Source of the DNA: Cinnamomum chago
Lineage: Eukaryota; Streptophyta; Magnoliopsida; Laurales; Lauraceae
Length of the DNA: 64,000 nucleotides
Assembly: GCA_038049695.1 (NCBI GenBank)
Contig: CP142451.1
Location: forward strand, 34,146,001-34,210,000
Direction of reading: 5' to 3'
Shown here: positions 29,371 through 63,510 of the stretch, in pieces
How the letters are laid out: every line of letters begins with the position of its first letter
Numbering within the stretch: the first letter of the stretch is position 1
The notes under the pieces: model-generated
What the model saw: the letters and a program-made list of their open reading frames with translations, nothing else
Databases searched by the model: none
Told to the model about the DNA's origin: nothing
Position numbers and translations under genes: made by a program

Positions 29371-29689
29371 GAAGTGCCAAAAAAAATTAAATCTTTTTAC
29401 TTGTTTTCCTTACTGTTCTTTTTCTTAATTCTTTTGCACTTGTGTTGAGGTAGTTTAGGTTGTTTTTCCCTTTTTCAGTTGTACACCCTCCTGCGGAGTG
29501 GGTCTTTGGTGCTAACATTTTGCAGGTTCTTTCGTGCAAGTTGGGGGGTCTACCCGACTTTTCTTTACTATGCATCGTTTTGTTTAGCACTACCCAGGTG
29601 ATATCCCTCCTTTTCCCTTTACTTTTATTGTCCTTTATCTTTTATTTTTTGTTTAACATTGTGGACACTGTTACATTCAGTTGGGGGGT

Positions 29690-30332
29690 GGGGTATTGAC
29701 CTTGGGAGTAGTTTAGGGGTAGTTTTAGCAGTTTTATTTCTGTTTGCTTGTTGTCTTTTATTTGTCTTTTCTTTTTCCTTGTCTTTTCCCTTTAAAAAAA
29801 AAAGGAGCTTTTGCTATTTTTGGTAGTCTTTCGGGAGATTTCCAACCGGGTTTTTGTGAAACGAAGATACCCTGTTTTTGGAACTTTTTGTGAGGAAAAA
29901 GAGAGAAATGGTTCACTATCTTGTTTTAGGAAAGAGTTTTTGAGAAATTGTTGAATTATTGATCTTTCACTTGACACGTATTATATAGAAAATTTGAAAT
30001 GTGAAGCTATGGGGTATTGACCTTGGGAGTAGTTTAGGGGTAGTTTTAGCAGTTTTATTTCTGTTTGTTTGTTGTCTTTTATTTGTCTTTTCTTTTTCCT
30101 TGTCTTTTCCCTTTAAAAAAAAAGAGGAGTTTTTGCTATTTTTGGTAGTCTTTCGGGAGATTTCCAACCGGGTTTTTGTGAAACGAAGATACCCTGTTTT
30201 TGGAACTTTTTGTGAGGAAAAAGAGAGAAATGGTTCACTATCTTGTTTTAGGAAAGAGTTTTTGAGAAATTGTTGAATTATTGATCTTTCACTTGACACG
30301 TATTATATAGAAAATTTGAAATGTGAAGCTAT
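29690..30332. repeat. ~321-bp tandem duplication
   Basis: 29690-30010 and 30011-30332 are nearly identical, differing mainly in A-run length. The unit-1 element has one copy. Confidence 0.9.
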
Positions 30333-30355
30333 GATTTCCATACCAGTGAAAACTT

Positions 30356-32013: not shown

Positions 32014-33768
32014 TGTAAGTCCACGAGGATCCTAACCCTAGAGGGGGGGGGGGGTGAATAGGGTGAGCTACAACTATGACCAATTTACACCAATTTTAAC
32101 TTCTTAATAAAAACTAGTCAAATGTGATGATTAAACAATCAATATGCGGAAGCTAATAAACAATCACCACACAAGCAATCACCACAACACAATATTTATA
32201 GTGGTTCGGCCTCAATGCCTACATCCACTACCGGCTTGTGCATCCAACACTCCACCGGATTTCCACTATTTATGCTTTTAACTAGGCTAAGCAATAACCC
32301 TTACAATGTTGCTTTTCAAGGCTAAACAACAACCTCTCAATGTGCTTTTCTAGGCTTAGCAATAACCTTTACAAAATGCTTTTCTTAGGCTAAGCAATAA
32401 CCTTACAAGATGCTTTTCAAAGGCTAAGCAATAACCTTACACAATGTAGATTTCTCTAAGAAGGTGTCTTTCCAAAAGATCACTCTAAGAGATACAAATT
32501 AAAGCTCAAATGTTGTTGCCTCTTAAATAGGCTAATATGAAAGTTTAAAATAACTCACACAAACACTCTATGAATGCAAAAGTGTATGCTCATGATGTGT
32601 GTGTGTGATGACTTCAATCAAGTTTAAAAAGAAAGCTTAATCAAATATATGCTTAAAGCATTTGAAAGTTTAAGACACACAAAAGTTTTGATTGAAGTTT
32701 GATGCAAATCACATGAATAATAAACAACTTGTTAATGACATGAAATTCAAAGAATCACAAGTTGTATGAAAAATAAAGTTTAATAAAGCATGTGATTTGA
32801 TAAGAGTGATTGCAAACTAATCTAATTTACCAAGAAAGATATTGAGCTTGCAAATCAACTCTTTAAGGACTTGAAATCATGCATAAATGAAAATACAAAG
32901 GATTTGAACATGCATGAATTTCATTTGTATGGAAATCAAAATAACTTAGAAGATGTACCTTTTAAAAACTCATGAGTTTGATTTCCAAATAGCCCTCTAG
33001 CCTTTCCAACTTCTTCCCCTTTCTTTGGCTCCAAAATGCTCTCAAAAGTTCATGTGTCAAACCTTGAAAAAGGTTGGAAATGAATGGACTTTATAGCCAA
33101 AAAGTTGCCAACGGCTAGTCCTCGGTCGATCGGCAAAGGGGTCTCGGTCGACCGAGAAGGCACAACGGTCAGATTTCTGACCGTTGGGGCTTCAGTTCAA
33201 AAAACTGTCCACTTGCCCTGCAGTGGTCTCGGTCGGTCTCGGTCGACCGGCGACACTGCCGGGCGAGTCCCTGGGGCCAAAAATCCAACTTTTTCTCATT
33301 TCAAAGTATTTCTTTGAGGGATCTTTGGGCCACTAAATCAAGGTTAAATAACATGTTTTAAGACATTCTAAGATGTTTAAAAACATGAAAAACACAAAGC
33401 CTAAAAAGATTCAAAAGTTTAAAACCAAAGGCTAGCTTGATTTGATAAAACTCTTTTCAAATGAAAATGCATACAAAAATGATTCTTTTTGTAATGAATG
33501 TATGCAAAGCTCAAACCTAAATTCACATGATGATTTTCCAAATATAATGCACAAGGAATTAGGTTTTCAAAAGAGTTTTGGGTTCTAAAACCAATGCATC
33601 CAAGTTTATGACCAAAACATGCATAAACCAAAAACTTTTTCAAATCTAAAAACCAATGCATGTATAAAACTAGATTTCAAGGTATTTTAAATCAAAGCAT
33701 GTGTAAAATATCAAATGATGCTAAAGTGCAAATGCATCCATCAAATTGCAATTACAAAATCCCTAACA
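32014..33768 (-). repeat. 3' LTR of the nested Copia element
   Basis: 1755 bp. It contains a poly-G run of 12 near 32043, five ~40-bp tandem repeats (about 32281-32448, words GGCTAAGCAATAACC and TGCTTTTC), a 16-bp palindrome TCTCGGTCGACCGAGA (33142-33157) and a perfect 10-bp hairpin CAACGGTCAG/CTGACCGTTG (33163-33186). Confidence 0.88.
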
Positions 33769-34140
33769 ATCTCCCCCTTTGCAATTTGATGGCAACTTAC
33801 TCATCATTGAAATTACACACCAAGGTCTTCAGCTCCCCCTCAGCTGGACAAGTCTTGAAATCTTCTTGGATGCTTCTTCTCTTAGCTTGGGCTCTTGAGC
33901 TCTTTTCTTCAATCTTCTTGATGCTTGGAGCTTGATCATTCTTCAAGCTTTCTTGCCTCTTTCTTTCTTTATCCAAGCATCTCCTTTAGCTCCAAGCTTT
34001 CTTTCTTCTATTTGCTCTCCCCCTTTGATGGATAGGAGATCTTCGAGTACTTGAACTCTCGAACTCTCTCCCCCTTTGAAGAGTAGGAGATCTTTGAGTC
34101 ACACTTGAACTCTCTCTCCCCCTTTGACATTAAATTGCAA
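33769..34140 (-). repeat. Polypurine tract and PPT-like tandem repeats
   Basis: The minus-strand polypurine tract AAAGGGGGAGAT abuts the 3' LTR at 33769-33780. The same CTCTCCCCCTTTGA-type word recurs near 34015, 34066 and 34114, within ~50-bp tandem repeats that also share TAGGAGATCTT and TTGAACTCTC. Confidence 0.75.
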
Positions 34141-34319
34141 AGGTACCTACACACATGAGACAAGAAGAATACCTTTAGTAGCACCTGTTAACAAATGAAA
34201 TCGAAAATGAAATTCATAACAGGCTATCATGTATGTAAGTTATCTCTAAGGGCTCAAAGGCAATCCAAGGGTGAATTTGATCAAAACTAATACTTCCTAT
34301 GAAGGTTTACACTCCCCCT

Positions 34320-36113
34320 CAATCCATTCTCTTCTTTTGTCAAACTTTGACAAGATATAACTATTAAATGCAAGAAGTAGATGGTTTAACCAAGTGAGGG
34401 TCAACTTCAAGGAAAGGATTAGATTCATTTAACTATAAAGCACAATATGATCAAATTACCAAAAGAGAGCTAGGTCTAATGGGAAAAGCAATCATGGATA
34501 TCAATTGGAAAAACAAAGAGTACCAATTGAGATTTAAGGATATGACTTATTAAATCAATCACTCTAAAATGGATTTAAAAATATAACTATTAGGAAAAAT
34601 CCAAATTAGAGCTATCCATGATGCAATGGGGTTTACTCAAACATAGCATCAATCAATATAACTTATGAAAATCATATGCTATGTAAGGTTTTGAACTCAT
34701 TTCATTCAATCAATAAATATGACTATTAAAGTGCAAGATGAGTGAAATGAATTCCAAGCATGAAGCCAACCTCAACTAATAACCAACCGATATTATTAAC
34801 ACATAAACATGGTGGTCATGAGATATACCTATATGAGTAAGAGAGGTGGCAAACATGAACATTATGATGCTAATGGTGTGTGACATGGAACAATCATATT
34901 ACTTATCAAGTTCAATCCAATGCACACAAGGTTTATCACATTCACAAGAAATCAAATCAATCAAACATTATACTAATTGAAACCAATTGAATTTGATAAC
35001 ATGAATAAGAGCAAGAATGTGACAAACTCAAAATTCCATCAAGCATCATAAATGCATATTCATCACTTTTAAAGATATGACTATTGAGCATAGTGATGAA
35101 CAAGGCAAATTGCAATGCAAAAGAATATGACTTTGTAAAGCATGCAATTTCCAAAGTGACTAAATCATATGAATTCAACACTAAGATATCCATCAAACAA
35201 GAGATATAACTATGAAATACAAGGAATGGATTTCAAAGAGGTTCATATGATCAAGAACACTACTATGAAGTTGAAACATGTATAAAGATGACTCCAAGAG
35301 AATCTACATGAATCAACATCATAACCATCCATAAAGATATGACTATAAGGCATAGAGGATGGATTTGGGTTCTAGTATGGTTTCTACAAATGAAACTAAG
35401 ATCACAACCATACATGGAACCAAAAGTCATTTGCATATATAAAGAATGTAAATAAACAAGCAAGGATGCAAACAACATACATTTCCATTTCTAAGATAAT
35501 GAAACCAAAAGAAAAAGGAAATGAAAACATGGAATATGCTTAGAAGATTATAACTATTGATGTTAAAGAGCATTTCCATTCATACAATCTTCAAATCATT
35601 TTAATACACAAAATCCAACAATGAGCATAAAAAGAATGATTTTGAAGATCAATTATCAACAATGTATTTTAAAAGATATAACTTAATTGAAACACATACA
35701 AGTTGATTTTTCAAAACAATGTTCTCCATATAAAAGTATAACTTAGGAATCCATGGAAAAACTTGAATTGATTCAAATCATTTGTTCAAAAAATATTACT
35801 ATCATATCTACACAAATGATTCAACAACAATTGATCATGAAAAGTCTAGCTATAAAAGCTTTTGAAATCACAATCAATTAATCATGTAGAAATGCAATGC
35901 AAAACATAAATGCAAAAAAAACAAATCAAACATGATGAGATTATAATCAAATGATTTTGAAAACCATGATATGTAACTTAGAATGGTGCATGAAGACAAA
36001 ATCAAAAGATCATAAAGAAACATTGCATTTTAATAGATGTAACTAAAAAGAAACAAAATGCAAATGCAACATGACCAACAAAGTGATTTAACTATTAAAG
36101 AATAGGTTGGTCA
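34320..36113 (-). repeat. Array of ~20 hairpins with a shared loop motif
   Basis: Successive inverted repeats with mutually unrelated stems enclose loops that mostly contain a word like GATATRACTATTA (plus strand). Perfect stems include 34641-34649/34676-34684 (9 bp), 35059-35067/35092-35100 (9 bp), 35164-35173/35242-35251 (10 bp), 35375-35382/35406-35413 (8 bp), 35776-35785/35812-35821 (10 bp), 36023-36031/36055-36063 (9 bp) and 36072-36079/36106-36113 (8 bp). At 34491-34622 a 10-bp stem encloses three 7-bp hairpins. The array lies downstream of the gag-like ORF, where pol would be. Function is unknown. Confidence 0.75.
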
Positions 36114-36128
36114 AGTAGGTTCAAGGCC

Positions 36129-37529
36129 CTAAGGTTTGTCTAGGTAAATAACTTTAGGAATCCACCTAAGGTCTTGAGAGGGTCGAACTTTGAGGTCTAT
36201 TTTGGACTTCTCACCAACTATAGGAGATTTAACTTGATAAATTTTCAATTTGAACTTATCACCATGATATTTAGATTTTACTAAATTTGGCTTAGAATGG
36301 TGATTAGTCTTTTGATGTTGGTGAGTTTGTTTCTTTGGGGATTGTTTCACTTTTCTTTTCTTCTTACTTTCTCCCTTTACTTGACTTTTGAATTTTAGAT
36401 TTAACTTAGCAACTTTCTTCAAAAGTTCTTTCATGGGTTCATATAAGGGAGGTAGGTTGAGAAGCTTTTTGTTTTTAGATTCTTTCAAGCTTGGTTTAAC
36501 TTGTTTAAGCTTTTTAGAATCTATCTTGGGAGACTCCTTTTTAAGAGATTTAACTTGTTTAGACATTTTGGAGTCTTTCTTGATTTTTAGTGTCTTACCC
36601 TTCATAGGTTTTGATTCTCCATTTTTTAGTTCAAAGATGGGTTTAGACACATGGCTTCTCTTTCTTAGTTTGCACTCAAACATAAAATGCCCTTCTATGC
36701 CACAATAATTGCATTTGGTTTTGGGCAAAAGAGAAAGAGTGCTAGAGAATGAGGACTCACCTTTCACAAAAGTGTTGGTGAATTTAGGGTCATATGTCAT
36801 ATTTCTATTAAATCCAAGACCCGTCCTATCTCCATGAGATTTACCCAATTTGAATAATTTTTCAAGTTTCTCTTCACTTTGGGTAAACTTGCACTCATAC
36901 TTTTGTTTATAGCTTTCAAGTTGAGTGACTTTGGTTATAAGGATTGAATTTTCATGTTTGACTTTTGAAAGTTCATTTTCAATTTCCTTATATTTGCTTA
37001 GCTCTTCATTGGCAAGTTTTAATTCAAGCTTTAGTTCATTAACAACATTAGATCCAAGCTCTTGGGTTTTTAACTTACTTTTAATCAACTTGGCTTCTAA
37101 ATTGTTAAAGTCTTTGTCTTGCCTTTTTATTTGATCTCTTAGAATTAAATTTTCCTTATTGACATTATCATAATCCATCTTTAATTCTTTTAGTTCATCT
37201 TGAATGTTAGATAGATTATTTAAAGAGATCATGAACTTAGATTCTACACAATTTATAAATTCATCTTTTTCTCTAAGTTCATTTTTAGAAGAGTCTAATT
37301 CTTGGTTTAGCCTTATAGATTCTTCTTTTAATCTTTTATTTTTCTTGGAAACCTCTAAGGACCATGTGTACAATTCCTCATAGGCTTCAAGTTCATCATA
37401 TTCTTCTTCTTTTAATTCAAGTTGAGATTCTTTAAATTCAATGTTTGAATCTCCATAAGATGGAAGAATGAGGGGTCTAGAAGAATCTACAAAGTCTAGC
37501 ATAGTGGAGTCCATTTCAATGATTTTCAA
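36129..37529 (-). CDS. Gag-like ORF of the nested Copia element
   Basis: A 466-codon open frame inside the element. Residues about 35-230 are charged and heptad-like, predicting a long coiled coil. GKSHGDRTGLGF at 229-240 is a motif seen in gag regions of SIRE-type Copia elements. A CX2CX4HX4C zinc knuckle lies at 273-286. A very basic, Lys-rich tail (about 300-440) ends in WIPK, close to where protease would begin in Copia polyproteins. By family, gag C-terminal regions bind RNA; here a structural or RNA-packaging role is inferred. The usual N-terminal gag domain and all pol domains are not seen. The open frame starts about 90 bp after the primer site, so it could be translated from the element's leader. 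It is not a host gene. Confidence 0.7.
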   Translation of the reverse strand: MKIIEMDSTMLDFVDSSRPLILPSYGDSNIEFKESQLELKEEEYDELEAYEELYTWSLEVSKKNKRLKEESIRLNQELDSSKNELREKDEFINCVESKFMISLNNLSNIQDELKELKMDYDNVNKENLILRDQIKRQDKDFNNLEAKLIKSKLKTQELGSNVVNELKLELKLANEELSKYKEIENELSKVKHENSILITKVTQLESYKQKYECKFTQSEEKLEKLFKLGKSHGDRTGLGFNRNMTYDPKFTNTFVKGESSFSSTLSLLPKTKCNYCGIEGHFMFECKLRKRSHVSKPIFELKNGESKPMKGKTLKIKKDSKMSKQVKSLKKESPKIDSKKLKQVKPSLKESKNKKLLNLPPLYEPMKELLKKVAKLNLKFKSQVKGESKKKRKVKQSPKKQTHQHQKTNHHSKPNLVKSKYHGDKFKLKIYQVKSPIVGEKSKIDLKVRPSQDLRWIPKVIYLDKP

Positions 37530-37616: not shown

Positions 37617-37628
37617 GCTCTGATACCA
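37617..37628 (-). promoter_or_regulatory. Primer binding site (tRNA-iMet)
   Basis: Minus-strand TGGTATCAGAGC, complementary to the 3' end of initiator-Met tRNA, three bases from the right-hand LTR. It fixes the element's orientation. Confidence 0.85.
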
Positions 37629-37630
37629 AT

Positions 37631-39402
37631 TGTAAGTCCACGAGGATCCTAACCCTAGAGGTGGGGGGGGGGGGGGGGGGGGGGGGGGTGAATAGGGTGA
37701 GCTACAACTATGACCAATTTACACCAATTTTAACTTCTTAATAAAAACTAGTCAAATGTGATGATTAAACAATCAATATGCGGAAGCTAATAAACAATCA
37801 CCACACAAGCAATCACCACAACACAATATTTATAGTGGTTCGGCCTCAATGCCTACATCCACTACCGGCTTGTGCATCCAACACTCCACCGGATTTCCAC
37901 TATTTATGCTTTTAACTAGGCTAAGCAATAACCCTTACAATGTTGCTTTTCAAGGCTAAACAACAACCTCTCAATGTGCTTTTCTAGGCTTAGCAATAAC
38001 CTTTACAAAATGCTTTTCTTAGGCTAAGCAATAACCTTACAAGATGCTTTTCAAAGGCTAAGCAATAACCTTACACAATGTAGATTTCTCTAAGAAGGTG
38101 TCTTTCCAAAAGATCACTCTAAGAGATACAAATTAAAGCTCAAATGTTGTTGCCTCTTAAATAGGCTAATATGAAAGTTTAAAATAACTCACACAAACAC
38201 TCTATGAATGCAAAAGTGTATGCTCATGATGTGTGTGTGTGATGACTTCAATCAAGTTTAAAAAGAAAGCTTAATCAAATATATGCTTAAAGCATTTGAA
38301 AGTTTAAGACACACAAAAGTTTTGATTGAAGTTTGATGCAAATCACATGAATAATAAACAACTTGTTAATGACATGAAATTCAAAGAATCACAAGTTGTA
38401 TGAAAAATAAAGTTTAATAAAGCATGTGATTTGATAAGAGTGATTGCAAACTAATCTAATTTACCAAGAAAGATATTGAGCTTGCAAATCAACTCTTTAA
38501 GGACTTGAAATCATGCATAAATGAAAATACAAAGGATTTGAACATGCATGAATTTCATTTGTATGGAAATCAAAATAACTTAGAAGATGTACCTTTTAAA
38601 AACTCATGAGTTTGATTTCCAAATAGCCCTCTAGCCTTTCCAACTTCTTCCCCTTTCTTTGGCTCCAAAATGCTCTCAAAAGTTCATGTGTCAAACCTTG
38701 AAAAAGGTTGGAAATGAATGGACTTTATAGCCAAAAAGTTGCCAACGGCTAGTCCTCGGTCGATCGGCAAAGGGGTCTCGGTCGACCGAGAAGGCACAAC
38801 GGTCAGATTTCTGACCGTTGGGGCTTCAGTTCAAAAAACTGTCCACTTGCCCTGCAGTGGTCTCGGTCGGTCTCGGTCGACCGGCGACACTGCCGGGCGA
38901 GTCCCTGGGGCCAAAAATCCAACTTTTTCTCATTTCAAAGTATTTCTTTGAGGGATCTTTGGGCCACTAAATCAAGGTTAAATAACATGTTTTAAGACAT
39001 TCTAAGATGTTTAAAAACATGAAAAACACAAAGCCTAAAAAGATTCAAAAGTTTAAAACCAAAGGCTAGCTTGATTTGATAAAACTCTTTTCAAATGAAA
39101 ATGCATACAAAAATGATTCTTTTTGTAATGAATGTATGCAAAGCTCAAACCTAAATTCACATGATGATTTTCCAAATATAATGCACAAGGAATTAGGTTT
39201 TCAAAAGAGTTTTGGGTTCTAAAACCAATGCATCCAAGTTTATGACCAAAACATGCATAAACCAAAAACTTTTCCAAATCTAAAAACCAATGCATGTATA
39301 AAACTAGATTTCAAGGTATTTTAAATCAAAGCATGTGTAAAATATCAAATGATGCTAAAGTGCAAATGCATCCATCAAATTGCAATTACAAAATCCCTAA
39401 CA
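37631..39402 (-). repeat. 5' LTR of the nested Copia element
   Basis: 1772 bp. The length difference to the other LTR comes from the poly-G tract (26 G here against 12). The same palindrome (38776-38791) and hairpin (38797-38820) occur. Confidence 0.88.
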
Positions 39403-41623: not shown

Positions 41624-41628
41624 CTCGT

Positions 41629-42380
41629 TGGGAATATTGCTTTAATATTCCAATGAGAAAATCAAGAAATCTCCGACAGTATCCAAAAATCATTTTGGAA
41701 AGTCTAACGGTCAAAGGCCATCTAGAAAAGCTAAAGGTCATGGTTTTTTTTGTTGTCTTGATATATGTAAAGTCATGTCTTTTGAAAGTGTCCCTTAGTA
41801 GTCTATATAAGGTTATGTAGTAGTTGTTTTCTAAGTGTGAAGAAATTATGTGAAGCAAGAGTGTGTGTGGAGGTCTTGGAGATTGTCTAGTGTTTTGGTG
41901 TAGGGAAATCTATTGTTATCTTAAATTTTGATTTATATAAAATTCTTTTGTTCATTTGATTTAGAGCAGGGGATCTATACGGCCCTTTGGCCGTAGAACC
42001 CCACATACACAAGCACACATATTCCATCATATTCGCTACAAAGAAGTTTCGGTAGACCAATTTATGTTTTTACTGTAACTTCAGTATTTTGTTCTGTTAA
42101 TCTGAGTACACAGAACTTAAACATGAGTATTTGTTGAAGGCAGCCTTAGTATGCACAGAATATGAATTTCAGTTCCAGCAATGTTGTAACAGAAGAAGCC
42201 ATCTTCCATCAAATTGGTATCAGAGCTCATATTTTCATCAAATTGGTATCAGAGTTCATATTTTCATCAGCCTTTCCTGTCTGGTTTTCCCTTTTTTTTT
42301 GGGGCCTTATGCCCTGGTCCCTCTCTTCTCTTAATACAAATTTACCTTAAAGCAAAAAGCAAAAAAAAAAAAAAAAAAAA
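41629..42380 (+). mobile_element. Copia LTR, primer sites and LINE-like 3' end, unit 2
   Basis: LTR from about 41654 to 42211, then two primer-site words in tandem (TGGTATCAGAGC at 42215-42226 and a variant at 42244-42255), then the LINE-like 3' end with a pure poly(A) run (42361-42380). The tandem primer site is shared with unit 3 but not unit 1. Confidence 0.65.
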
Positions 42381-44860
42381 GAAGTATTGATCCTAAATTC
42401 AAACTGATTTGCACACTAGTCCCCATGTGATATTATCAAATGAGTTTATGCAGTATATTTATATATAGGGTGAATGATAATCACCTTTGAGCTAAATATT
42501 AAGCAAATTAAAATATAACTCTAGAAACCATTCGAATTTAATCTGATGGAGATTATTATACAGATTAGTATTAAGTTAGGATAAGTGTTAATTCATGGGT
42601 GTGAGGGAGTTGGAATTGTTAATTCACGTGGCGGTAAAAAGTTTACCTCTCGTGTAAGTTCACGAGTGGTACATTTTAGCTCAACATAGCCCATATATAT
42701 ATTAAGGGCTTAAAAAAATGTTAGGATCATTTGATTGGTTGATAATTCACATCCAACATTTCTATGACCATGCTTTTGTAATTGTCATGCTTGCATTCGA
42801 TTGAACTCCACTAGAAGTGATAACTATTTAAGGTAATGTTGGGTTTTCTTGTAGCAATGATCTTGAAAACCACGGCAAATAAATCTCCATTACGGCCCGA
42901 CTTTGTTAAGAGTCCATGCAACGGATCATGGTGGATCGTTGTCTTAGATTCATTACATTAGGCCTGGACCATCACATATAATTGGTGGGCCACTCATCAT
43001 TAGAATGGACCAATTAAGAGCCCAATCAGACAATCCTCTTGATCCGGCTATACAATCGCACAATCGGACAGATCGCACGATGCATGCAGTGTACCTGGGA
43101 CTTGAAGAAAATGATGTCTTTGATGGATGGCCGTTGCACCCCACCCACCAGTTCTTCACAACCTAGCCAAAGTACTTCTGTTACTTTGGCTGGGTAAACT
43201 TGTTTTGGCATGCTAACAATAGGGCTCCAATTATATTAGAGATTATCCTTCTATCACGCTGTAAAGGAATGCTTGAACATTGGATTCACAATTCATTGAA
43301 CTAAGTTTTGTTTATGATGATATAGCATTCAATATTTTCGTTAATCACATTAATTTTATTAGTGCTAACAATATGATTTATGATAAGTGAGCTTAATTTG
43401 TTGAAATAATCCAAGGATATTGATCACTTTTATATGAAACTCGCGATAGAGCCCATACATCAGTCGGTGTTTAATATGATCGGGTTGGTAAAATGAGTAG
43501 TTCAAGTGAAGCCATTGTGATTATTGCTAACAATGCTATAAGTTATTAAAGGATTTTACCTGAGAAAATCACCTTAGATGTGGTCACCAAAAAGACCCTC
43601 TGAGTTTTCTTCAGACGGAAGTGGTCCCTTGAGACCGCAATCATTGGTTTTTTTCTTTCTTAAAAATAGGGGCGGGTCGATATCGACCTCCGTTGGGCCT
43701 TTAAAACGCAAAAAACTCTAGTTTTCTGCTTATCTCTCTCCTCTTCTCTTCCACAAACCTATTTGGGTTTGTAAGTCAAACTAGTCTGTGAAAATCCTAG
43801 TGCCAAATAACTAGAACAGCCAGGGCGACAAACATGCGTGGGATGTAAAAGGGCCATAATACCATACCAGCATACCTTATCACACACTGATCATTCAGTC
43901 ACGCATATCAACAGTTAACTGACATGTCATCTCCGAAAAAGATCATTCCCACCTCCTAAAGGTTAATGGCCCTTAGAGTCCTATTGATTGCAATGGAACC
44001 CACACAGATTTGCACACAGGACCTGGCTATTACTCTTCAAATTACAAGTCCATAAATGATTGATGGAATAAGAAAATAACCCCCTTTTCCATTTACTACC
44101 AATACAACTGTGACAATAACATGATTGAACATATACAAATGTCCACAACTGGGTTTTACACATGCTGCGTATTCAACCAGGCAAATCAACAAATCAATTG
44201 AAGTGTCATTGATAAGCATTGGTTGCATGGTTCATGTACCTCAATTATAGCATGATTCGTTCTCCTCTATTGATGTGGATTAAGATGTTGTCTCCATTTG
44301 CATCATTGCTTCCCCACTTCCTAATCCTCCTGGTCATCATCTTATATTTTCTTTTTCCCATTCTTTCACCGGTCTAAATTTGTTTACAACTTTTTTGTAT
44401 TTTGTATTTTTTTTCTATTTTATTGTAGATCTTGCGGTTGTTTTAAATGCTTAGGCATGAAATTACATTTTTTTGGGGGATTTTTTGCCTTTTTTCATTT
44501 TGGCATATTTGTAAATTTCTTTTTCTCAAGCCCTGATCCGTCTATTGTAACTGCCATGGGAGCTTCTTAGCTCATATTTTCTTTACTTTTCTGTCTCAAC
44601 TTGAATTCAACTAAATGTGCATACAATGAATCGAGAGATGTCAAGAAAGGAGGACCATACATTAATTTGAGTTTTAGTCCGTGCTTGTATTTGTGATTGA
44701 TGATATGATTACTAATTGTAGAATCTTTTTTTTTCTTTCGATAAAAATATTTATCAATATAATTATATGTTTATAATTATATTTTGATACATTATTACTA
44801 TTATTAATTTTTACCCGGCCTAAGCATGGGCCGTTGTTGCTAGTAGAATTATATACATAC
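42381..44860. other. Host block, left part, unit 2
   Basis: Copy of 5294-7763, continuous with the following part because the Athila-like element is absent. No gene is seen. The old paralogue of the MIR159 upstream DNA lies at about 42455-43330. Confidence 0.6.
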
Positions 44861-47056
44861 ACAAGCCCATAAGCGAGCACAAATAGAAATCAACACATTT
44901 GTTGAATGGTTATTTGTATAACGGCAGGTTAGTATAATGACCGTTAATGAAAGCCCATTTTATGGACGTCCGCTTAATCATGGAAATGTCAAAGCCTTTC
45001 CAAACCCCTATTTCCCTTATAGGAAATGATTTTTCAAACATCATCATAAATCAGTCACCATTTGTAACTTTTTCTTAGAGTAAATTGTGCAGCACCAAAC
45101 AGTAAGAGGGGCACAAGTGCAGAAAAGCGATGCCAGTGGTGACACACAAACATGCCCATGTTCCATAGTTAAATAACCATAAATCCCCATATCATAAACA
45201 TCCTATTGAGCACCCAATAATTTATGTACTCACAAGAGATTGACAATTAACACAAAATGTTGAGTCTCTTGACAATTAACACAAAATGTTAAGTCTCTCT
45301 TTTGGTTTATACAATCAAAACAACAGTGCACTTTTAAGTACAGAATTGGTACAAGTAGTTTGAAGAAGAAAGAAAGACCAAATTGCCAGCAGACATGACT
45401 GCAGTATGAAGAAAGTGAGGTTTCTGAGATTTCACCCGTTCGTTTACTATCTTCTCCGAGGTATAAGACCTGTTCATCACAACTAAAACGTCATCTCATA
45501 CAATAAATAAAACACTATATTTATATATATTTCAATATCAAATGCGTCGAGATTTCTCCAATTAAAATAAAACTTTCAAAAATTCTGTTCAATATTGTGC
45601 ATTTTTAATAATTGTATACTTGCTAAGTTCTCAGCTTGTTTAGGTGGTTATGGCCTTATAGAGTGGAGAAGGTTTGCCTGATTCCATTTACTTATGAGTG
45701 GCTCAAGCCCAGACCCTCCAGAATTAGAGTGGAGAAGGTTTGCCTGACTCCATTTACTTATGAGTGGCTCAAGCCTAGACCCTCCAGAATGTGTTAAGGT
45801 CAGGTGAGATCTAAATTTCACTGTTAACATTGTGAGTATTATTGTGGTCAATTGGCCTGAAAAAATTGTACAAATCTAGATTGAATTACGCTAGCGCCAG
45901 TGAATATGCCCAATTTCATACCAGTCTCATTATTAGTCCAGGCTTCATAAAAGCCAGTTGGAGCTTGTTGGCTTCACTTAAAAATGAAAACCTATCTTTT
46001 AAAAGAAATATAAATTTAAAACAAATTTTTAGCTGAGTTCAGCCACATTTTACAATCCAAGTTGCTCCAATTTATAGCTAAATTTAACTGTTGTATTTGA
46101 GCCCAACAAATTTAGTATTGGTCGAGCCCAACAAAAAAAGAAACTCTCTTTTAGCGGTAGACAAAATGAGATTACATGAAGAAAAAACCACCGCTCCTGC
46201 ATGATTTTTGCGACATAAAATTTTTGTCACTATTTCCTACCCATTCTCTGAGACGGTTCGTCAGGAGCTTAAAACGACAATTGTAGCGGCGGGGAAAAAT
46301 CTCCGCCACTAAAGGATGTTCCATCCACTACTAAAGATCACTTTTTTGTAGTGACAACTGCATGTTTTACAATTAATCAATATAATTGTGAGCCCAAATC
46401 TCATTAGTGTGGTGAAATTGCGACCGGTGCTGACATATTGGGAGGCAAAGAATTAAAGTGGCTCGGTTTAGGCTGTTCTCTAGTGGGGACTTCCTGAAAA
46501 TATAGATTAATACTTGATGTGCGATGAGAGTGCAATGAGGACAAGGAGATACAAGGGTGGGCTTTAAAATAAAAGCTAGGTTCGCTTTTAATATTATTAT
46601 ATATAAAGTGTCGCTACTTCTATTTTGAAACGCGACCAAAATGGGATTTATATCAACTTAGATTTTAGGCCATGACCCGATATTGAACGCGGCAATAATT
46701 TAGAGGACTTTTGAGAATTGATGGGAGTAGAAGCGAGATTGGAGGCTGATTGTTTGTTTCCATGGGCGTGTTTGATTCTAAAATACTAATCCCTAAGAAT
46801 TCTAAAAATTGTACTCCTAAAAATGGCTGGAAGATCCATCAATGGCTACCTAGCAATCTCCTCTCTTATATATGGAAAATGATTTGAGGAGGAAGATGGA
46901 AAATGGATACTTGTCCTTCACCCAATTAAATCAAACCCTAGGGAAGTGCCCCTTCTACATATTGACCTTATATCATTTACTACTCAATTTTTTAATACCA
47001 TTGTGTCATGATTTTGTAATAATTTAATTCCATGAAAACAAATAATCCCTTAATAT
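44861..47056. other. Host DNA downstream of MIR159 copy 2
   Basis: Copy of 14945-17116 with the 65-bp direct repeat (45661-45790) and the CACTA-like terminus (to 46353). A further 27-bp duplication around 45239-45290 (TTGACAATTAACACAAAATG word) is shared with unit 3 but not unit 1. Confidence 0.6.
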
Positions 47057-47058
47057 CA

Positions 47059-47107
<49 letters not shown>

Positions 47108-47108
47108 C

Positions 47109-47282
47109 AATGGAGCTCCCTTCACTCCAAGTAAGAAAAGAAGAAGGCGACCTCATCTCCTGGTTCATGCACACCTTAAACTGCATGAACTCCTGCTAAC
47201 TTCTACAGTTAAAAGGTATTCATGAACCAGCAGCTGTCAACACCCTCTTTCCTCTCTGGACTTGGAGTGAAGGAGCTCCAGT
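47109..47282 (-). ncRNA. MIR159: MIR159-type microRNA precursor, copy 2
   Basis: Same foldback as copy 1 with an unchanged mature arm (47111-47131, CTTGGAGTGAAGGGAGCTCC plus A) and star arm (47260-47280). The upper duplex is also conserved. A (GA)n tract borders it at 47057-47106 and (GAT)12 lies in its leader at 47309-47344. The unchanged hairpin in a neighbourhood that differs from unit 1 at a percent or two suggests constraint, but the hairpin is short and this is weak evidence. Expression cannot be judged from the sequence. Confidence 0.85.
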
Positions 47283-47308
47283 AACCCAAACTTCAAAATA
47301 ATAGTAAC

Positions 47309-47347
<39 letters not shown>

Positions 47348-47460
47348 ACAACATTTCTCCAACTGACTGAAAGGCCAACCACCATATCTACTAGAGAGGG
47401 AGCAAGTGAAATACTTAGCAAACCACAACACTCTTGAAGAGTAAAGGGGACAAGGGCTGC

Positions 47461-47470
47461 CTTTTATAGA
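47461..47470 (-). promoter_or_regulatory. Predicted TATA box of MIR159 copy 2
   Basis: Minus-strand TCTATAAAAG, same position relative to the foldback as in copy 1 apart from microsatellite length. Confidence 0.65.
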
Positions 47471-50400
47471 TTTCATGATTTAACTATGGCCATTGGATGC
47501 CATTGAGATATGGAAAGTGAATCTTGAGTTGGAGATTTTCATTCATGTAAATCTATGGTTTTGCCCATAGGAATGGGGCCTCAAAAAATAGGTTGTGGTT
47601 TAATTAGGATGGAGACTGGTTGTGGTATTTGGAAACCTGGTGAATCCTCCGTGATACCCACTTTCCTAATATCCCTTCTCATAAAGGTATGTTTTTCAAC
47701 GATGTGGACCTTTCCTCTTCCACGGCGGTACGAGTCCTACTTATGACTTGGAACACGGTTTTCCTCCCTACGCATGGATATTGCAATAAAAGACTATGAT
47801 ATTATCAATTAAGTTTGTGCAATATATATATATATATATTATATTGTGTGAATAATAACCACCATCGGATTAGATTTTCTTGAAAATATAACTGGAGAAT
47901 CAGTTGGGACTTTATCCGATATGGAGATTATTACTCAGATTAGCGCCAAGTGAGGATGAGTGTTAATTCATGTGGGTTAGTCTGTGTGAGGGGATTGGGA
48001 TTGTTATGCTATGTCCCACATGGTGGTAAAGAGTTTCCTCTCTTGAAAATCAATGAGAGGTACCTCTTAGCCCAACATAGCACATATATTAAAGGTTTAA
48101 AACTAAATATTAAGGTCATTTGATTGGTCAGTATTTTGGATATCCCTAATTCACATCTAACATTTCTATGACCGTAACTCTGAAATTGTCATGCATTTTG
48201 CCGAGCTCCACTAGAATTGAGAACTCTTTAAGGTACAATGTTGGATTTTCTTGTAGCATTGATCTTGAAAACCATGGAAGATAAATCTGCATTATAGGCC
48301 CGACTTAACCAAAGTCTATTATGACATTAATTAGCAAGCCAAAACGAAACATGTTCTACAATTAGTAGAGGTAGTCCAAAATTAGTACATCATAAAAGCA
48401 TGTTTGGTAAGCATCCATGTAGTGAATCCCTTTTGATTTTCCTCGATCCCAATGGAGAGTTTAGGTTTGGTATTGAGATGAAAATAGTAGCAAGGACCTC
48501 CAGGATCCATGTTTCCTATTTTATTACTATAGGACCTCCCCAGATCCCCCTACCCCACTATTAGATTATGAAGATCAACGGAATCAAAGAAAGTGGAAGA
48601 AAGCGTAGCTATAGTGGTCATGGCTGGTAACTCAAAGGCTACCGGTTTTGCCTTTGGAAACATAGTTTTTAGGTCCCTTTATTTAAGATACGAATTGTTA
48701 ATCATGTTTAAAATGTTCAAAATGGCTAGGAATTCAAATATCTACAACCGACTCCTCGTGTACTTTTGCGCTATTTTCAAAAAAGTTCATACCATAGATC
48801 ATGATGTCCCGACTTCTATAGACACATTTTGTAAAATCTGAACTGTTTAGTCTCGTCTTAAGGTCTAAAATGGCTATGTCGTTAAATTTTAAAGAAGAAT
48901 TAATCATGGGTCATACAAAAATTCCAAAAAAACATGTTAGTTGTTGAAGATATTTTTAACTTAGGAAGCCAGAAAAGACGCTGCTATAGTATCAAAATTG
49001 GTGACCTAAGAGGTTACCTTTTTTCTTTGGAACTCTATTGTTTGGATTCCATAATCAATATTTGAACCACTAATCATAATTATAAGGTCATAAAGCCATT
49101 ACATAAAATTTCAGCCATTTATTTGTCATGGAGTTTGAGATATTTGCAAATAAGTCTAGATCCCAAAATATCAACTTTTAATTTCCATGGGCCCAATTTG
49201 CAAGATCCGAACCGTTGAAACTCTCTAAAGAGCGAAGGATGGCTATGTGGTGAGGAATTAACCATTTTTTTCATGGATTTTGAGAAAATTGTAAGAAAAA
49301 AAGCCTATAACTGTAGGATCACACATCCCATAGATGGTAGGAGTCCTCTCCATTAACCAAACTTGGAACTTCCTTGGAAATCTTCTTTGGGATATGTTAA
49401 ATTCAAGAGAATAAGGTAACCCTCTAAATAGAGTATTCCTCTTTGTTTAGGAAACGTTCCCTAAAAACGTAACCCACTCCATAGCACCTGCCACACTTTG
49501 AGAACCCTCATTTCCTCTCATGTTGGTGAAATAACATCCTTGCCACATGTAATTATTGACTTATTTCTGCGTGCTAACAATAGGGCACCAATATTTCCTG
49601 ATCCCGATTAGAGACTGTCCCTCTATTACTTTAATGGAACGCTCAAACATTGGGTCCACAATTCATTTAACTAATTAGTTTGTTTTAAGATGATAGGTAT
49701 AGAGTGCAGGTGAGACACTTAGTGAAATTGAAATATAAGATCTTGTCATTAGTATGGTGCTAATGTAAGCTAACACTTAATTTAACCCATATCGACGTAC
49801 CTTTGCTAGATTAAAGTGGTTCAGATCTCACACCACCTTAGTCTAAGAGCTGACCTATACTTCACCTTAGCTAAAGAAAAATGCACTACTGGATTATTCA
49901 TTTGTGAAAAAAATATAACAACAAACTACATATTTGATCAATCCACCAGTATCTATTGAAGCAATCGAGACTACAATTTTGGAAGTTCTTGTTTTCAGAG
50001 TAAAATTTGGAAGTTGTTTACAAAGAGGGTCGTGCATTATATCAGTAGTGGTTTTGATAAGGAAAACTTGGTTCCACTCATGTTGAATAAGATATGTACT
50101 TGCGAAAAGCCCACAGCTAAGCACGGGCAGCGTGATTCATAAAATTAAATATTATAAAAATTTATTATAAAATAGAAATTATGCCGTGGTGCAGTAAAAT
50201 TATTTTTAAAACATGTATTTTCAATATTAAATATATTCCGAATTCTAAAGGACTACCACAACAGCCTATATAATAAAAAAACTCTAGATTTTCTACTTTA
50301 ATCAACCATTTAATTTCACAAAATAATAGAAATGGCGAAGATAAGTGTGCATTTAAGCAAAAAAAAGGGAGAAAAGATATATATGAAATTAACTCTGTAA

Positions 50401-50564
50401 TTCGTGATATTTGGAAGCAATGGGTTTATTCAGAAGTTAATGAAGATTTATGTTATCTTAGTTGATTAATGCATCCTATGGATCAATATACTATTTTAGA
50501 CATGTTTTGTAAGATAGTAATCTCATCCGTAAGATCCAACCCTTAAAATCCATGATAAACATGG
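47471..50564. other. Region upstream of MIR159 copy 2
   Basis: Copy of 17527-20618, including the two diverged ~300-bp direct repeats (about 48600-48900 and 48985-49290). No gene is supported. Confidence 0.55.
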
Positions 50565-50766
50565 CACTACACCAAAAATAGGAAATTGGAACGGTTTAGG
50601 AACGGTTTAACTGATTAGGAATGGACGGATTAAGAACGGTAATCTGTTCAAATTTCCTGTTTTTGGTGTAGTAACCGTTCCTAATCCGTTCCAAAAATAG
50701 GAAATTGGAACGGATTATCGGATTCGGAATGGTAATCCGTTCCAATTTCCTGTTTTTGGTGTTGTG
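50565..50766. mobile_element. CACTA-type MITE, unit 2
   Basis: Copy of 20619-20809 with a slightly longer interior (an extra GGTTTAGGAACGG word). Confidence 0.7.
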
Positions 50767-51017
50767 TGGATAATACATCAGATGCTTACCAATCCATAGA
50801 TAATCTGTAAACATTAGAAGAAAATTATGATATTATATGCATAAGAAAAAGAGAAAAGGCCATAAGTATAGAGACAATGTAGAAAGTTATAGTAGGTACG
50901 ATGAAATTGTCATCGCATAATTATAGTTGTGGTTCAAGTATGCAAGAACACAATTGTGATAAACACCAAATAGATATATATCTATATGAATATAAAGATT
51001 CCAATAGAATGAAATTG

Positions 51018-51069
<52 letters not shown>

Positions 51070-53714: not shown

Positions 53715-54606
53715 TGCTGAAGCCTCCCCCTCTGTTTCGTTTCTGTGTTTTTGGTTGTCTGGGTTTGGCCTTGCTGCTGGTTTTGAAGCTTCCCTCCCCT
53801 TCTTTGCCAGTGAAGTGGAGTTCTGCCTGCTGATTGTGCTGCGTTTTGGTTTCCCTGTTTTTGGTGGCTTTCGTGTTGTCCGGTGCTGTGGGGAGCTGAG
53901 TTCTGTAGTTCGCCGTGCTGCTTTGTGGTGTTGTGCTGTCCCTTGCTTTGGTCTCTGTACTGTGCAGTGGTATTGAAGCTTCATAGTGCTGGTGGTTCTG
54001 TGCTTTGCAGGGACGTGCTTAGCTTTGCTTAGTGGTGGAGTTCCCTCTGGGCAGTGTTTTGCTGAGCATTTTTGCTTTCTCTGTGCTGTTTTGTGTAGCT
54101 ATTTTGGCTCTTTTGCCTTTTTGGGAAGGCAATTTTTTGGGCGTGCAGGTGCAGTGGTGTGCTGTGTTTCTGGTTTTCTGGGTAGGGCCTTGCGGCCATT
54201 TTGAAGCTTCCCTTTCCTCCTCCTTCAGTGCATGTGCAGTGCTTTGTGTGTGCTATGCTTCGTGTGATTCGTGGTGAAGAGCAGTGCCATGCAATGATTC
54301 TCTCTGTGCAGTGAAGTGGATTTGATGCTTCCATGTGCTGGTTGTGCTGTGCTTTGCTGACAAGTGCAATGCTATGCATAACAGTGGTGCTCTCTCTGTG
54401 CAGTGAAGTGCTGTGTTTTTATGCTTTCTCTGTGCTGTTTTGTGCTGTGCTTTGCTGTGCGCAGTGCTAGGTGGTGAACTGGTGTTTTCCTTTTTCCTGT
54501 CTCCCATGTACAGGTAGCTCTCCTTTTGTTTTCTGTTTGGCACTTTTGCAACTTTGGAATGGTTTTTTTTGTAAACCTCGTTGGGATTATTGCTTTAATA
54601 TTCCAA
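53715..54606 (+). mobile_element. LINE 3' UTR, unit 3
   Basis: G/T-rich copy of 3724-4614. It keeps the ~87-bp stretch missing in unit 2. Confidence 0.7.
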
Positions 54607-55337
54607 TGAGAAAATCAAGAAATCTCCGAGAGTATCCAAAAATCATTTTGGAAAGTCTAAAGGTCAAAGGTCATCTAGAAAAGCTATAGGTCATGGTTTT
54701 TATTGTTGTCTTGATTTATATAAAGTCATGTCTTTTGAAAGTGTCCCTTAGTAGTCTATATAAGGTTATGTAGTAGTTGTTTTCTAAGTGTGAAGAAATT
54801 ATGTGAAGCAAGAGTGTGTGTGGAGGTCTTGGAGATTGTCTAGTGTTTTGGTGTAGAGAAATCTATTGTTATCTTAAGGTTTGATTTATATAAAAGTCTT
54901 TTGTTCATTTGATTTAGAGCAGGGGCTCTGTACGGCCCTTTGGCCGTAGAACCCCACATACACAAGCACACATATTCCATCATGTTCGCTACAAAGAAGT
55001 TTCGGTAGAGCGATTTATGTTTTCACTGTAACTTCAGTATTTTGTTCTGTTAATCTGAGTACACAGAACTTAAACATGAGTATTTGTTGAAGGCAGCCTT
55101 AGTATGCACAGAATATGAATTTCAGTTCCAGCAATGTTGTAGCAGAAGAAGCCATCTTCCATCAAATTGGTATCAGAGCTCATATTTTCATCAAATTGGT
55201 ATCAGAGTTCATATTTTCATCAGCCTTTCCTGTCTGATTTTCCCTTTTTTTTTTGGGGGCCTTCTGCCCTGGTCCCTCTCTTCTATTAATACAAATTTAC
55301 CTTAAAGCAAAACGCAAAAAAAAAAAAAAAAAAAAGA
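54607..55337 (+). mobile_element. Copia LTR, primer sites and LINE-like 3' end, unit 3
   Basis: LTR 54607-55164, a primer site TGGTATCAGAGC at 55168-55179 repeated about 29 bp later, then the LINE-like 3' end with poly(A) (about 55317-55335). Base substitutions here side mostly with unit 1, although the primer-site doubling is shared with unit 2. Confidence 0.65.
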
Positions 55338-57810
55338 AGTTTTGATCCTAAATTCAAACTGATTTGCACACTAGTCCCCATGTGATATTATCAAATGAGT
55401 TTATGTAGTATATTTATATATAGGGTGAATGATAATCACCTTTGAGCTAAATATTATGCAAAATATAACTCTAGAAACCATTCGAATTTAATCTGATGGA
55501 GATTATTATAAAGATTAGTTTTAAGTTAGGATAAGTGTTAATTCATGGGTGTGAGGGAGTTGGAATTGTTAATTCACGTGGCGGTAAAAAGTTTACCTCT
55601 CGTGTAAGTTCACGAGTGGTACATTTTAGCTCAACATAGCCCATATATTAAGGGCTTAAAAAAATGTTAGGATCATTTGATTGGTTGATAATTCACATCC
55701 AACATTTCTATGACCATGCTTTTGTAATTGTCATGCTTGCATTCGATTGAACTCCACTAGAAGTGATAACTATTTAAGGTAATGTTGGGTTTTCTTGTAG
55801 CAATGATCTTGAAAACCACGGCAAATAAATCTCCATTACGGCCCGACTTTGTTAAGAGTCCATGCAACGGATCATGGTGGATCGTTGTCTTAGATTCATT
55901 ACATTAGGCCTGGACCATCACATATAATTGGTGGGCCACTCATCATTAGAATGGACCAATTAAGAGCCCAATCAGACAATCCTCTTGATCCGGCTATACA
56001 ATCGCACAATCGGACAGATCGCACGATGCATGCAGTGTACCTGGGACTTGAAGAAAATGATGTCTTTGATGGATGGCCGTTGCACCCCACCCACCAGTTC
56101 TTCACAACCTAGCCAAAGTACTTCTGTTACTTTGGCTGGGTAAACTTGTTTTGGCATGCTAACAATAGGGCTCCAATTATATTAGAGATTATCCTTCTAT
56201 CACGCTGTAAAGGAATGCTTGAACATTGGATTCACAATTCATTGAACTAAGTTTTGTTTATGATGATATAGCATTCAATATTTTCGTTAATCACATTAAT
56301 TTTATTAGTGCTAACAATATGATTTATGATAAGTGAGCTTAATTTGTTGAAATAATCCAAGGATATTGATCACTTTTATATGAAACTCGCGATAGAGCCC
56401 ATACATCAGTCGGTGTTTAATATGATCGGGTTGGTAAACTGAGTAGTTCAAGTGAAGCCATTGTGATTATTGCTAACAATGCTATAAGTTATTAAAGGAT
56501 TTTACCTGAGAAAATCACCTTAGATGTGGTCACCAAAAAGACCCTCTGAGTTTTCTTCAGACGGAAGTGGTCCCTTGAGACCGCAATCATTGGTTTTTTT
56601 CTTTCTTAAAAATAGGGGCGGGTCGATATCGACCTCCGTTGGGCCTTTAAAACGCAAAAAACTCTAGTTTTCTGCTTATCTCTCTCCTCTTCTCTTCCAC
56701 AAACCTATTTGGGTTTGTAAGTCAAACTAGTCTGTGAAAATCCTAGTGCCAAATAACTAGAACAGCCAGGGCGACAAACATGCGTGGGATGTAAAAGGGC
56801 CATAATACCATACCAGCATACCTTATCACACACTGATCATTCAGTCACGCATATCAACAGTTAACTGACATGTCATCTCCGAAAAAGATCATTCCCACCT
56901 CCTAAAGGTTAATGGCCCTTAGAGTCCTATTGATTGCAATGGAACCCACACAGATTTGCACACAGGACCTGGCTATTACTCTTCAAATTACAAGTCCATA
57001 AATGATTGATGGAATAAGAAAATAACCCCCTTTTCCATTTACTACCAATACAACTGTGACAATAACATGATTGAACATATACAAATGTCCACAACTGGGT
57101 TTTACACATGCTGCGTATTCAACCAGGCAAATCAACAAATCAATTGAAGTGTCATTGATAAGCATTGGTTGCATGGTTCATGTACCTCAATTATAGCATG
57201 ATTCGTTCTCCTCTATTGATGTGGATTAAGATGTTGTCTCCATTTGCATCATTGCTTCCCCACTTCCTAATCCTCCTGGTCATCATCTTATATTTTCTTT
57301 TTCCCATTCTTTCACCGGTCTAAATTTGTTTACAACTTTTTTGTATTTTGTATTTTTTTTCTATTTTATTGTAGATCTTGCGGTTGTTTTAAATGCTTAG
57401 GCATGAAATTACATTTTTTTGGGGGATTTTTTGCCTTTTTTCATTTTGGCATATTTGTAAATTTCTTTTTCTCAAGCCCTGATCCGTCTATTGTAACTGC
57501 CATGGGAGCTTCTTAGCTCATATTTTCTTTAATTACTTTTCTGTCTCAACTTGAATTCAACTAAATGTGCATACAATGAATCGAGAGATGTCAAGAAAGG
57601 AGGACCATACATTAATTTGAGTTTTAGTCCGTGCTTGTATTTGTGATTGATGATATGATTACTAATTGTAGAATCTTTTTTTTTTCTTTCGATAAAAATA
57701 TTTATCAATATAATTATATGTTTATAATTATATTTTGATACATTATTACTATTATTAATTTTTACCCGGCCTAAGCATGGGCCGTTGTTGCTAGTAGAAT
57801 TATATACATA
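55338..57810. other. Host block, left part, unit 3
   Basis: Copy of 42381-44860; no gene is seen. From about 55700 on it is almost identical to unit 2. Confidence 0.6.
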
Positions 57811-60007: not shown

Positions 60008-60009
60008 CA

Positions 60010-60066
<57 letters not shown>

Positions 60067-60067
60067 C

Positions 60068-60241
60068 AATGGAGCTCCCTTCACTCCAAGTAAGAAAAGA
60101 AGAAGGCGACCTCATCTCCTGGTTCATGCACACCTTAAACTGCATGAACTCCTGCTAACTTCTACAGTTAAAAGGTATTCATGAACCAGCAGCTGTCAAC
60201 ACCCTCTTTCCTCTCTGGACTTGGAGTGAAGGAGCTCCAGT
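60068..60241 (-). ncRNA. MIR159: MIR159-type microRNA precursor, copy 3
   Basis: Third copy, with the mature arm at 60070-60090 and the star arm at 60219-60239, both unchanged from copies 1 and 2. It is flanked by (CA)n(GA)n at 60008-60065 and has (GAT)7 in its leader (60268-60288). If all three copies are expressed they would give the same small RNA, so they act as dosage copies rather than separate regulators (inference). Confidence 0.85.
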
Positions 60242-60404
60242 AACCCAAACTTCAAAATAATAGTAACGATGATGATGATGATGATGATGGAACAACATTT
60301 CTCCAACTGACTGAAAGGCCAACCACCATATCTACTAGAGAGGGAGCAAGTGAAATACTTAGCAAACCACAACACTCTTGAAGAGTAAAGGGGACAAGGG
60401 CTGC

Positions 60405-60414
60405 CTTTTATAGA
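60405..60414 (-). promoter_or_regulatory. Predicted TATA box of MIR159 copy 3
   Basis: Minus-strand TCTATAAAAG, conserved with the other two units. Confidence 0.65.
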
Positions 60415-63400: not shown

Positions 63401-63510
63401 ATCTTAGTTGATTAATGCATCCTATGGATCAATATACTATTTTAGACATGTTTTGTAAGATAGTAATCTCATCCGTAAGATCCAACCCTTAAAATCCATG
63501 ATAAACATGG
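60415..63510. other. Region upstream of MIR159 copy 3
   Basis: Copy of 47471-50564 with the ~300-bp diverged direct repeats (about 61545-61850 and 61930-62240). No gene is supported. Confidence 0.55.

Follow-up and report, generated by a model that had tools for sequence, protein, structure and literature searches.

A 7.4-kb long terminal repeat (LTR) retrotransposon of Sirevirus-type Copia character lies on the minus strand of a 64,000-nt window of the Cinnamomum chago genome (C1:34146001-34210000; positions below are those of the window), with the 5-bp outer target duplication CAATC on both sides. Its internal domain carries a gag-like open reading frame (ORF) with a zinc knuckle and a coiled-coil-like region, six polypurine tract (PPT) octamers ahead of the 3′ LTR and, between the ORF and the octamers, an array of hairpins on the minus strand (34261..36128) composed of 24 helices, branched domains and loops with an ACTW core (plus-strand letters). 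The array thus occupies the place where pol would be, as a preliminary description of the locus had it. Apart from the gag-like ORF, the internal domain has no ORF of 100 aa or more in sense orientation, and a pol ORF was not found. The conservation of the array suggests that the element needs a structured RNA for its spread.

Over 34200-36128 there are 14 exact Watson-Crick stems of at least 8 bp with loops of up to 60 nt, compared with 3.6 ± 1.8 and a maximum of 9 in 200 dinucleotide shuffles, and seven stems of at least 10 bp with loops of up to 200 nt, compared with 1.0 and a maximum of 5; stems of 11 bp or more are absent from this interval and average 0.3 in the shuffles. The minimum free energy (MFE) of the whole array (span 200, 60 shuffles) corresponds to z −8.5 for the minus strand, which is the element sense, and −7.8 for the plus strand, and the arrays of four other copies give z −7.7 to −16.2 on either strand (14 shuffles each). 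Windows of 200 nt across the array give an uneven signal (z +0.5 to −4.7), and some stems span nearly 200 nt. The preliminary description had reckoned with shuffled sequence giving as many stems; the shuffles yielded fewer, and on these together with the conservation between copies we rejected chance AT-rich pairing. A coding remnant was likewise rejected, the longest ORF within the array being 79 aa. An Rfam search of the array (E ≤5) returned four matches of 17-21 bits, compared with gathering scores of 40-55, and hence no known RNA family.

The array had been described as some 20 consecutive hairpins. The count agrees with the 24 helices; several stems, however, enclose others (34491-34622, 34862-35051 and 35164-35251), and the array is therefore a chain of branched domains and simple hairpins. 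Hairpins with ACTA in the loop are positioned at 36072..36113 (8 bp, loop of 26 nt), 36023..36063 (9 bp, loop 23; the outermost pair is absent in 16/22 copies), 35776..35821 (10 bp, loop 26), 35375..35413 (8 bp, loop 23), 35325..35362 (6 bp, loop 26), 35059..35100 (9 bp, loop 24) and 34697..34750 (8 bp, loop 38, with an invariant stem), all on the minus strand as are those that follow. ACTT is found in the loops at 35952..36004 (8 bp, loop 37; the outermost pair is absent in 15/23 copies), 35107..35150 (8 bp, loop 28; the stem is without variation in 29 copies) and 34641..34684 (9 bp, loop 26). A 14-bp stem with a single bulge (35587..35649) closes a loop without ACTW, and the stem at 35264..35323 is built of three 5-bp runs in which 13 of 15 pairs are invariant across 29 copies. 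Outer stems of 10 bp each are found at 35164..35251, at 34862..35051, where the stem closes a branched domain, at 34491..34622 around the hairpins 34501-34530 and 34563-34610, and at 34274..34457. At 5-15 bp the stems are short for Dicer substrates. The exactness of the stems and the conserved cores would also have no obvious role in a decoy, and we consider it very improbable that the hairpins act on host Dicer as small-RNA substrates or as decoys that absorb it, as suggested for maize Sirevirus LTR palindromes, even though passages of PMC10760457 describe an excess of small RNAs on palindromic, structured regions of maize Sireviruses.

What the hairpins have in common is located in the loop. 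The 13-mer GATATRACTATTA, allowing up to 2 mismatches, has 10 matches in the 64-kb window, seven of them in the array (5.05 expected; 2/100 shuffles reach 10). A looser search for the core found 15 sites in the array, and 10 of these lie fully within innermost hairpin loops (3.4 expected, p 4e-4), which make up 23% of the array; the hairpin list was fixed before loop sites were counted. In 11 of the 16 innermost hairpins the loop contains ACTA or ACTT, and a common loop motif on unlike stems is also the arrangement proposed for dispersed packaging signals. Across the hairpins of the 15 loop sites the arms have almost no shared letter information, which bears out the earlier statement that the stems are unrelated to each other. 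When arms of different hairpins were compared with each other, the mean score was near chance (22.4 vs 20.4), with 3/219 pairs over the 99% point of the null, and we rejected on this basis a general case of hairpins as duplicates with compensated arms. The segments 35645-35694 and 36006-36055 (76% identity, E 7e-4) may be a duplicated hairpin pair, and a U-A to C-G difference between them is seen by eye in both arms.

To compare copies we used an alignment of 29 distinct arrays: 25 remained after near-identical ones from 65 loci and the window were merged (the locus L065 being excluded), and four were then added. Each column was scored against its commonest letter with the window row excluded, leaving 28 copies; our first selection figures had instead been differences from the window copy. 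In the named helices, paired columns vary at 137/10,071 positions (1.4%) and unpaired columns at 2,085/34,501 (6.0%), a 4.4-fold difference, and when the pairing mask was shifted circularly, none of the 1,838 shifts gave paired variation as low as that observed. Since the named helices were partly chosen with the alignment in view, the comparison was recomputed using an MFE structure predicted solely from the window copy, which gives 3.7% paired and 7.1% unpaired, again with 0/1,838 shifts as low; measured as difference from the window copy, the same structure gives 4.4% and 8.9%. At the 15 loop sites the arms vary by 1.5% on the left and 2.4% on the right and the ACTW core by 1.6% (21/1,339), compared with 8.8% (371/4,226) and 10.5% (292/2,773) in the left and right linkers between core and stem, rates (9-11%) that exceed the synonymous rate of the gag-like ORF. 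As regards an effect of the search word on the core, the ATATR letters, likewise part of that word, vary by 7.7%. The hairpin at 35059-35100 repeats the pattern in 62 rows of equal length (stem letters 4/620, core 4/248, linkers 112/1,240), drawn from the 63 of 2,805 genome places with letters, all on C1 and with exact flanks, one having been dropped for length.

Five copies could be compared with the window copy in both array and ORF. Their paired sites differ by 0.9-2.3%, about the same as the amino-acid-changing sites of the gag-like ORF (pN 0.9-2.9%), and their unpaired sites by 7.0-11.2%, which in each copy is more than the synonymous value (pS 1.6-8.6%). Two further loci, L064 and L069, have an unrelated hairpin set past window position 35437, some of its loops containing words like ATATAACTA. 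This alternative set folds as well (z −4.2 and −6.4 in sense, −2.9 and −3.5 in antisense), and between the two loci its stems differ less than the rest, at 2/107 vs 34/495 with stems taken from L064 and at 4/137 vs 32/465 with stems taken from L069. The preliminary description had spoken of a conserved loop and a variable stem, which holds among the hairpins of one array; from one copy to another, stems and ACTW core are kept and the rest of the loop varies. From the arm comparison and the variation in the alignment together, the stems vary among hairpins yet are kept among copies, the core is kept both ways and the linkers are free. Decay of stems without compensation, the second outcome that the preliminary description had considered, was not seen, the stems being kept in the available copies. 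Selection on base pairing, and not on one common stem sequence, is supported by these results, and the array is very probably under structural constraint. In the helices of the alignment 98.2% of 5,206 cells pair, compared with 29-42% when the partners are slid, and both the covariation score and the number of double-change cells lie above all shuffles (0/500 reach them).

The family is abundant. In genome-wide counts, taken over the 1.06-Gb assembly of 14 contigs, a 21-mer across the PPT and attachment site (up to 2 mismatches) occurs at 8,238 places (control 1) and the intact 9-bp hairpin 35059-35100 at 5,283 (control 0), the pattern of this hairpin being its own reverse complement so that every place appears on both strands. 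A pattern for the same hairpin with longer flanks, in which five pairs were left free, matches 2,805 places (control 0), and one for the hairpin 34641-34684, likewise flanked and with four pairs free, matches 1,734 (control 0). For two base pairs of the hairpin 35059-35100, single-base variants with short flanks are rare genome-wide, numbering 4, 2, 5 and 5 copies as absolute counts. Among the scored candidates from a genome search with the array DNA there were at least 41 matches, and a viral_contigs search for relatives confirmed none. The array follows downstream of the gag-like ORF in 30/30 loci (the best 30 of 91 listed matches), and eight of nine 3′ ends, hand-chosen from the listed PPT places and all on C1, carry it at 87-91% identity; the ninth, L065, lacks it.

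On C1 below 37.54 Mb, 32/41 listed PPTs have the hairpin 35059 at 1.26-1.65 kb on the array side and none has it on the opposite side; conversely, a listed PPT is near 32/47 of these hairpins, and the other 15 may hold a mismatched PPT, since the PPT places listed are exact matches only. Independent mobile hairpin units were rejected for this one hairpin, which is tied to the element PPT. The same association speaks against a purely mutational origin, in which template switching or nested insertion resembling miniature inverted-repeat transposable elements builds hairpins round a seed word without selection. A common loop word on unrelated arms and the gain and loss of hairpins among arrays would suit such a process, which the preliminary description had also entertained; the near-chance similarity of the arms, the 4.4-fold lower variation of paired columns over 28 copies and the far lower variation of stem letters than of linkers in the 62 rows make it the least credible of the explanations considered here, and we give it hardly any weight.

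The gag-like ORF (36129..37529, minus strand) is 466 aa long when started mechanically at a TTG, the first ATG being M6. Its N-terminal half is coiled-coil-like and is followed by a CCHC zinc knuckle (residues 272-287; 36669..36716, minus strand) and a Lys-rich tail. The knuckle matches Pfam zf-CCHC with E 0.0032 and 18 bits, under the 20.8-bit cut-off, and its Cys and His residues are retained in 7/7 aligned proteins; NCBIfam and PDB searches of the ORF protein gave weak matches only, mostly to coiled-coil proteins. Between copies the ORF is constrained, with pooled pN 1.9%, pS 5.5% and pN/pS 0.35 for seven copies against the window copy, the eight that remained of 30 gag loci when one was dropped for length and near-duplicates were removed. 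The first hairpin of the array begins about 15 nt past the ORF stop codon, a position that would suit a translation or processing signal, in which the hairpins, descended from the Sirevirus gag/pol inverted repeat and amplified once pol had been lost, would act on termination or RNA export; passages of PMC2829016 do mention a conserved inverted repeat at that junction. Two dozen units across 1.9 kb exceed, in our judgement, the needs of a recoding site, and we regard this explanation as improbable.

The remaining parts of the element are of Sirevirus type. Self-comparison aligns 32043-33768 with 37677-39402 at 99.94% identity, and the LTRs extend over 32014..33768 (3′ LTR, ends placed by TG...CA and the CAATC duplication) and 37631..39402 (5′ LTR, ends as read, with a C-rich run close to the end), both on the minus strand. 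Directly inside the 5′ LTR the letters of the primer binding site ATTGGTATCAGAGC are read (37617..37630, minus strand), which we take to match initiator-Met tRNA. The six identical PPT octamers ahead of the 3′ LTR (AGGGGGAG in sense, CTCCCCCT on the plus strand) begin at 33771, 33833, 34017, 34068, 34116 and 34312 and thus fill 33771..34319 of the minus strand; the terminal octamer is followed by the AT/TG attachment site (AGGGGGAG AT TG in sense, 33778-33767), and octamer and attachment site are flanked by a perfect 14-bp inverted repeat (33738..33792, minus strand; 14 nt, 100%). The LTR also contains CGG-CCG palindromic repeats, the GGTCTCGGTCGACCG family, which has four copies at 33118-33249, including two exact ones. 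The octamers, the AT/TG site, the bordering inverted repeat, the palindromic boxes, the C-rich stretch and a protein with a CCHC knuckle and a coiled-coil-like part are all shared with Sireviruses (Ty1/Copia, SIRE/Maximus lineage), whose non-coding marks are described in passages of Bousios et al. 2010 (PMC2829016). The element differs in being without pol, and those passages list no hairpin array among their conserved motifs; the repeated palindromes that they report, in LTRs and before env, have one common sequence, unlike the array here. As a separate observation, palindromes with CGGTCGACCG occur in the LTR at 33118-33249, and 33143-33342 has the lowest z of the 200-nt windows tested (−5.4).

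Stems, loose linkers and a short exposed core, repeated many times, call for a function that uses all three. Our tentative preference, held at somewhat less than even confidence, is that the array forms a structured RNA region under constraint in a non-autonomous Sirevirus-type element and acts as a multivalent docking array. In this family a string of hairpins and branched domains would have taken the place of pol; most innermost hairpins would present the ACTW core (UAGU or AAGU in sense) in mid-loop, and the stems would keep the loops open at fixed distances along the genomic RNA. An RNA-binding protein would then recognize many cores at once, the likeliest binder being either the zinc-knuckle/coiled-coil protein that the element itself encodes or Gag supplied by an autonomous Sirevirus helper, and docking would get the element RNA packaged together with helper enzymes; packaging into helper particles would be the step most directly raising copy number. 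A docking array would fit best because a zinc-knuckle, coiled-coil-like basic protein is encoded alongside and because helper enzymes should be needed, given that no pol ORF was found. We infer that RNA and not DNA is the acting form, that the sense strand is the relevant one, and that protein binding, packaging and a helper are involved; docking and packaging as such we hold a shade more cautiously than the reading as a whole. A further step, in which the array is a built-in multivalent packaging or assembly platform by which a Sirevirus parasite out-competes its helper and reaches thousands of copies, is possible but doubtful. The family bears on how the RNA of a non-autonomous plant retrotransposon gets packaged by a helper. 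The cis-acting parts can be read from the alignment because, over 1.9 kb of non-coding sequence, constraint falls on the stems and on a four-base loop core, with the intervening letters left free. If the docking array is real, the idea of multiple packaging signals, proposed for RNA viruses, would be extended to retrotransposons in testable form.

Several observations weigh against this proposal. The adjoining ORF also out-folds its shuffles (z −5.7 and −4.9), so that excess structure by itself is not unique to the array. Compensatory changes occur at 2/208 pairs (11 cells), namely GC to AU at one pair of the hairpin 34501-34530 in 8/21 copies and AU to UA at one pair of 34641-34684 in 3/28, and the counts of compensated pairs (294/500) and of further pair types (494/500) are no higher than in shuffles; covariation is weak, being limited by the low divergence between copies, and as classical proof of the selection on structure suggested in the preliminary description it is thin. 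No capsid family was found in the gag-like ORF by the Pfam search, and it seems, we presume, to be without the N-terminal capsid part of Sirevirus Gag; the element may accordingly rely on a helper for the particle itself. The helper element is postulated, as are binding and packaging. The arrays of L061, L062, L064, L068 and L069 are partly deleted or replaced, the extent being as read. Five of the 16 innermost hairpins are without the ACTW core, which disfavours a strict one-core-per-hairpin model. These core-less loops would suit the main rival, a structural RNA without loop recognition that keeps the RNA compact, stable or dimeric and in which the loop word is a duplication relic or spacer. 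It would also account for the stems being the most conserved part, and a conserved RNA secondary structure is stated, in passages of PMC7215508, for large retrotransposon derivatives (LARDs) and terminal-repeat retrotransposons in miniature (TRIMs), two classes of non-autonomous LTR element. The ACTW core is nonetheless as conserved as the stems at the 15 sites, on unrelated arms, where variation is 5-7 times higher in the adjoining loop letters, and we consider a purely structural role rather unlikely, although a serious contender.

The sense strand is likewise not singled out by the base-pair changes. Changes to G-U and to A-C number 17 and 12 (p 0.16) in the alignment, and genome-wide variants of the hairpin 35059-35100 with G-U and A-C occur at 7 and 5 places; as neither test favours a strand, the RNA sense strand is an assumption drawn from the element life cycle. 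A constraint on DNA, through cruciforms or through single-stranded cDNA hairpins in reverse transcription, integration or tandem-array recombination, would be consistent with these counts, with the about equal folding of both strands and with the frequent occurrence of copies in tandem chains. The PPT and attachment site, however, are located elsewhere, and we know of no step in LTR-element replication that needs such an array; we judge a DNA-level constraint unlikely. The chains themselves consist of three to nine units at a regular spacing of 5.2-5.8 kb and were seen at C6:27.05 and 44.38 Mb, C8:44.08 Mb, C12:63.74 Mb and C1:60.55-60.59 Mb. The spacing is less than a whole element, and they are therefore probably LTR-internal-LTR chains as in the published Cassandra arrays, which the chains resemble as described in passages of PMC7215508.

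Several known systems share parts of this organization. LARDs, the original paper on which reportedly dates from 2004, are the first of these. The conserved secondary structure stated for LARDs and TRIMs in passages of PMC7215508 has a counterpart here, as judged from the sequence of a non-autonomous LTR element. Those classes are said there to hold no gag, pol or env, whereas the 466-aa ORF here is constrained between copies, and the Cassandra fold given there is a pairing of LTR with LTR, not a series of small hairpins that have a loop core in common. TR-GAG elements, as defined in passages of PMC6022998, are non-autonomous LTR elements that encode a gag-like protein alone, which the element here may resemble; in its ORF no capsid family was found and the zinc knuckle lies below the Pfam cut-off, and that definition is silent on RNA structure. 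Dispersed packaging signals proposed for RNA viruses (passages of PMC6281560) are multiple stem-loops with a common loop motif, varying round that motif, which in MS2 is in the apical loop; they are spread through viral genomes and tied to a coat protein, unlike the array here, which is known from sequence alone. Our searches of open-licence papers turned up no Copia element with a series of unlike hairpins built around a common loop core. The statement in the preliminary description that no described Copia feature matches has to be qualified, since conserved RNA structure as such is already on record for LARDs and TRIMs.

A few further features were observed. In L065 (1-735) the PPT and attachment site are present and the internal domain extends about 0.7 kb to LTR-like DNA with almost no array, perhaps a TRIM-like derivative. 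In L062 (1378-2000) unrelated DNA poor in hairpins takes the place of the array and may be another insertion. Elsewhere in the window, 41624-51054 and 54577-64000, of 9.4 kb each, are 99.2% identical and either were duplicated recently or are two young copies of a different element, and 29689-30333 is a tandem pair of 322-bp units with 99% identity.
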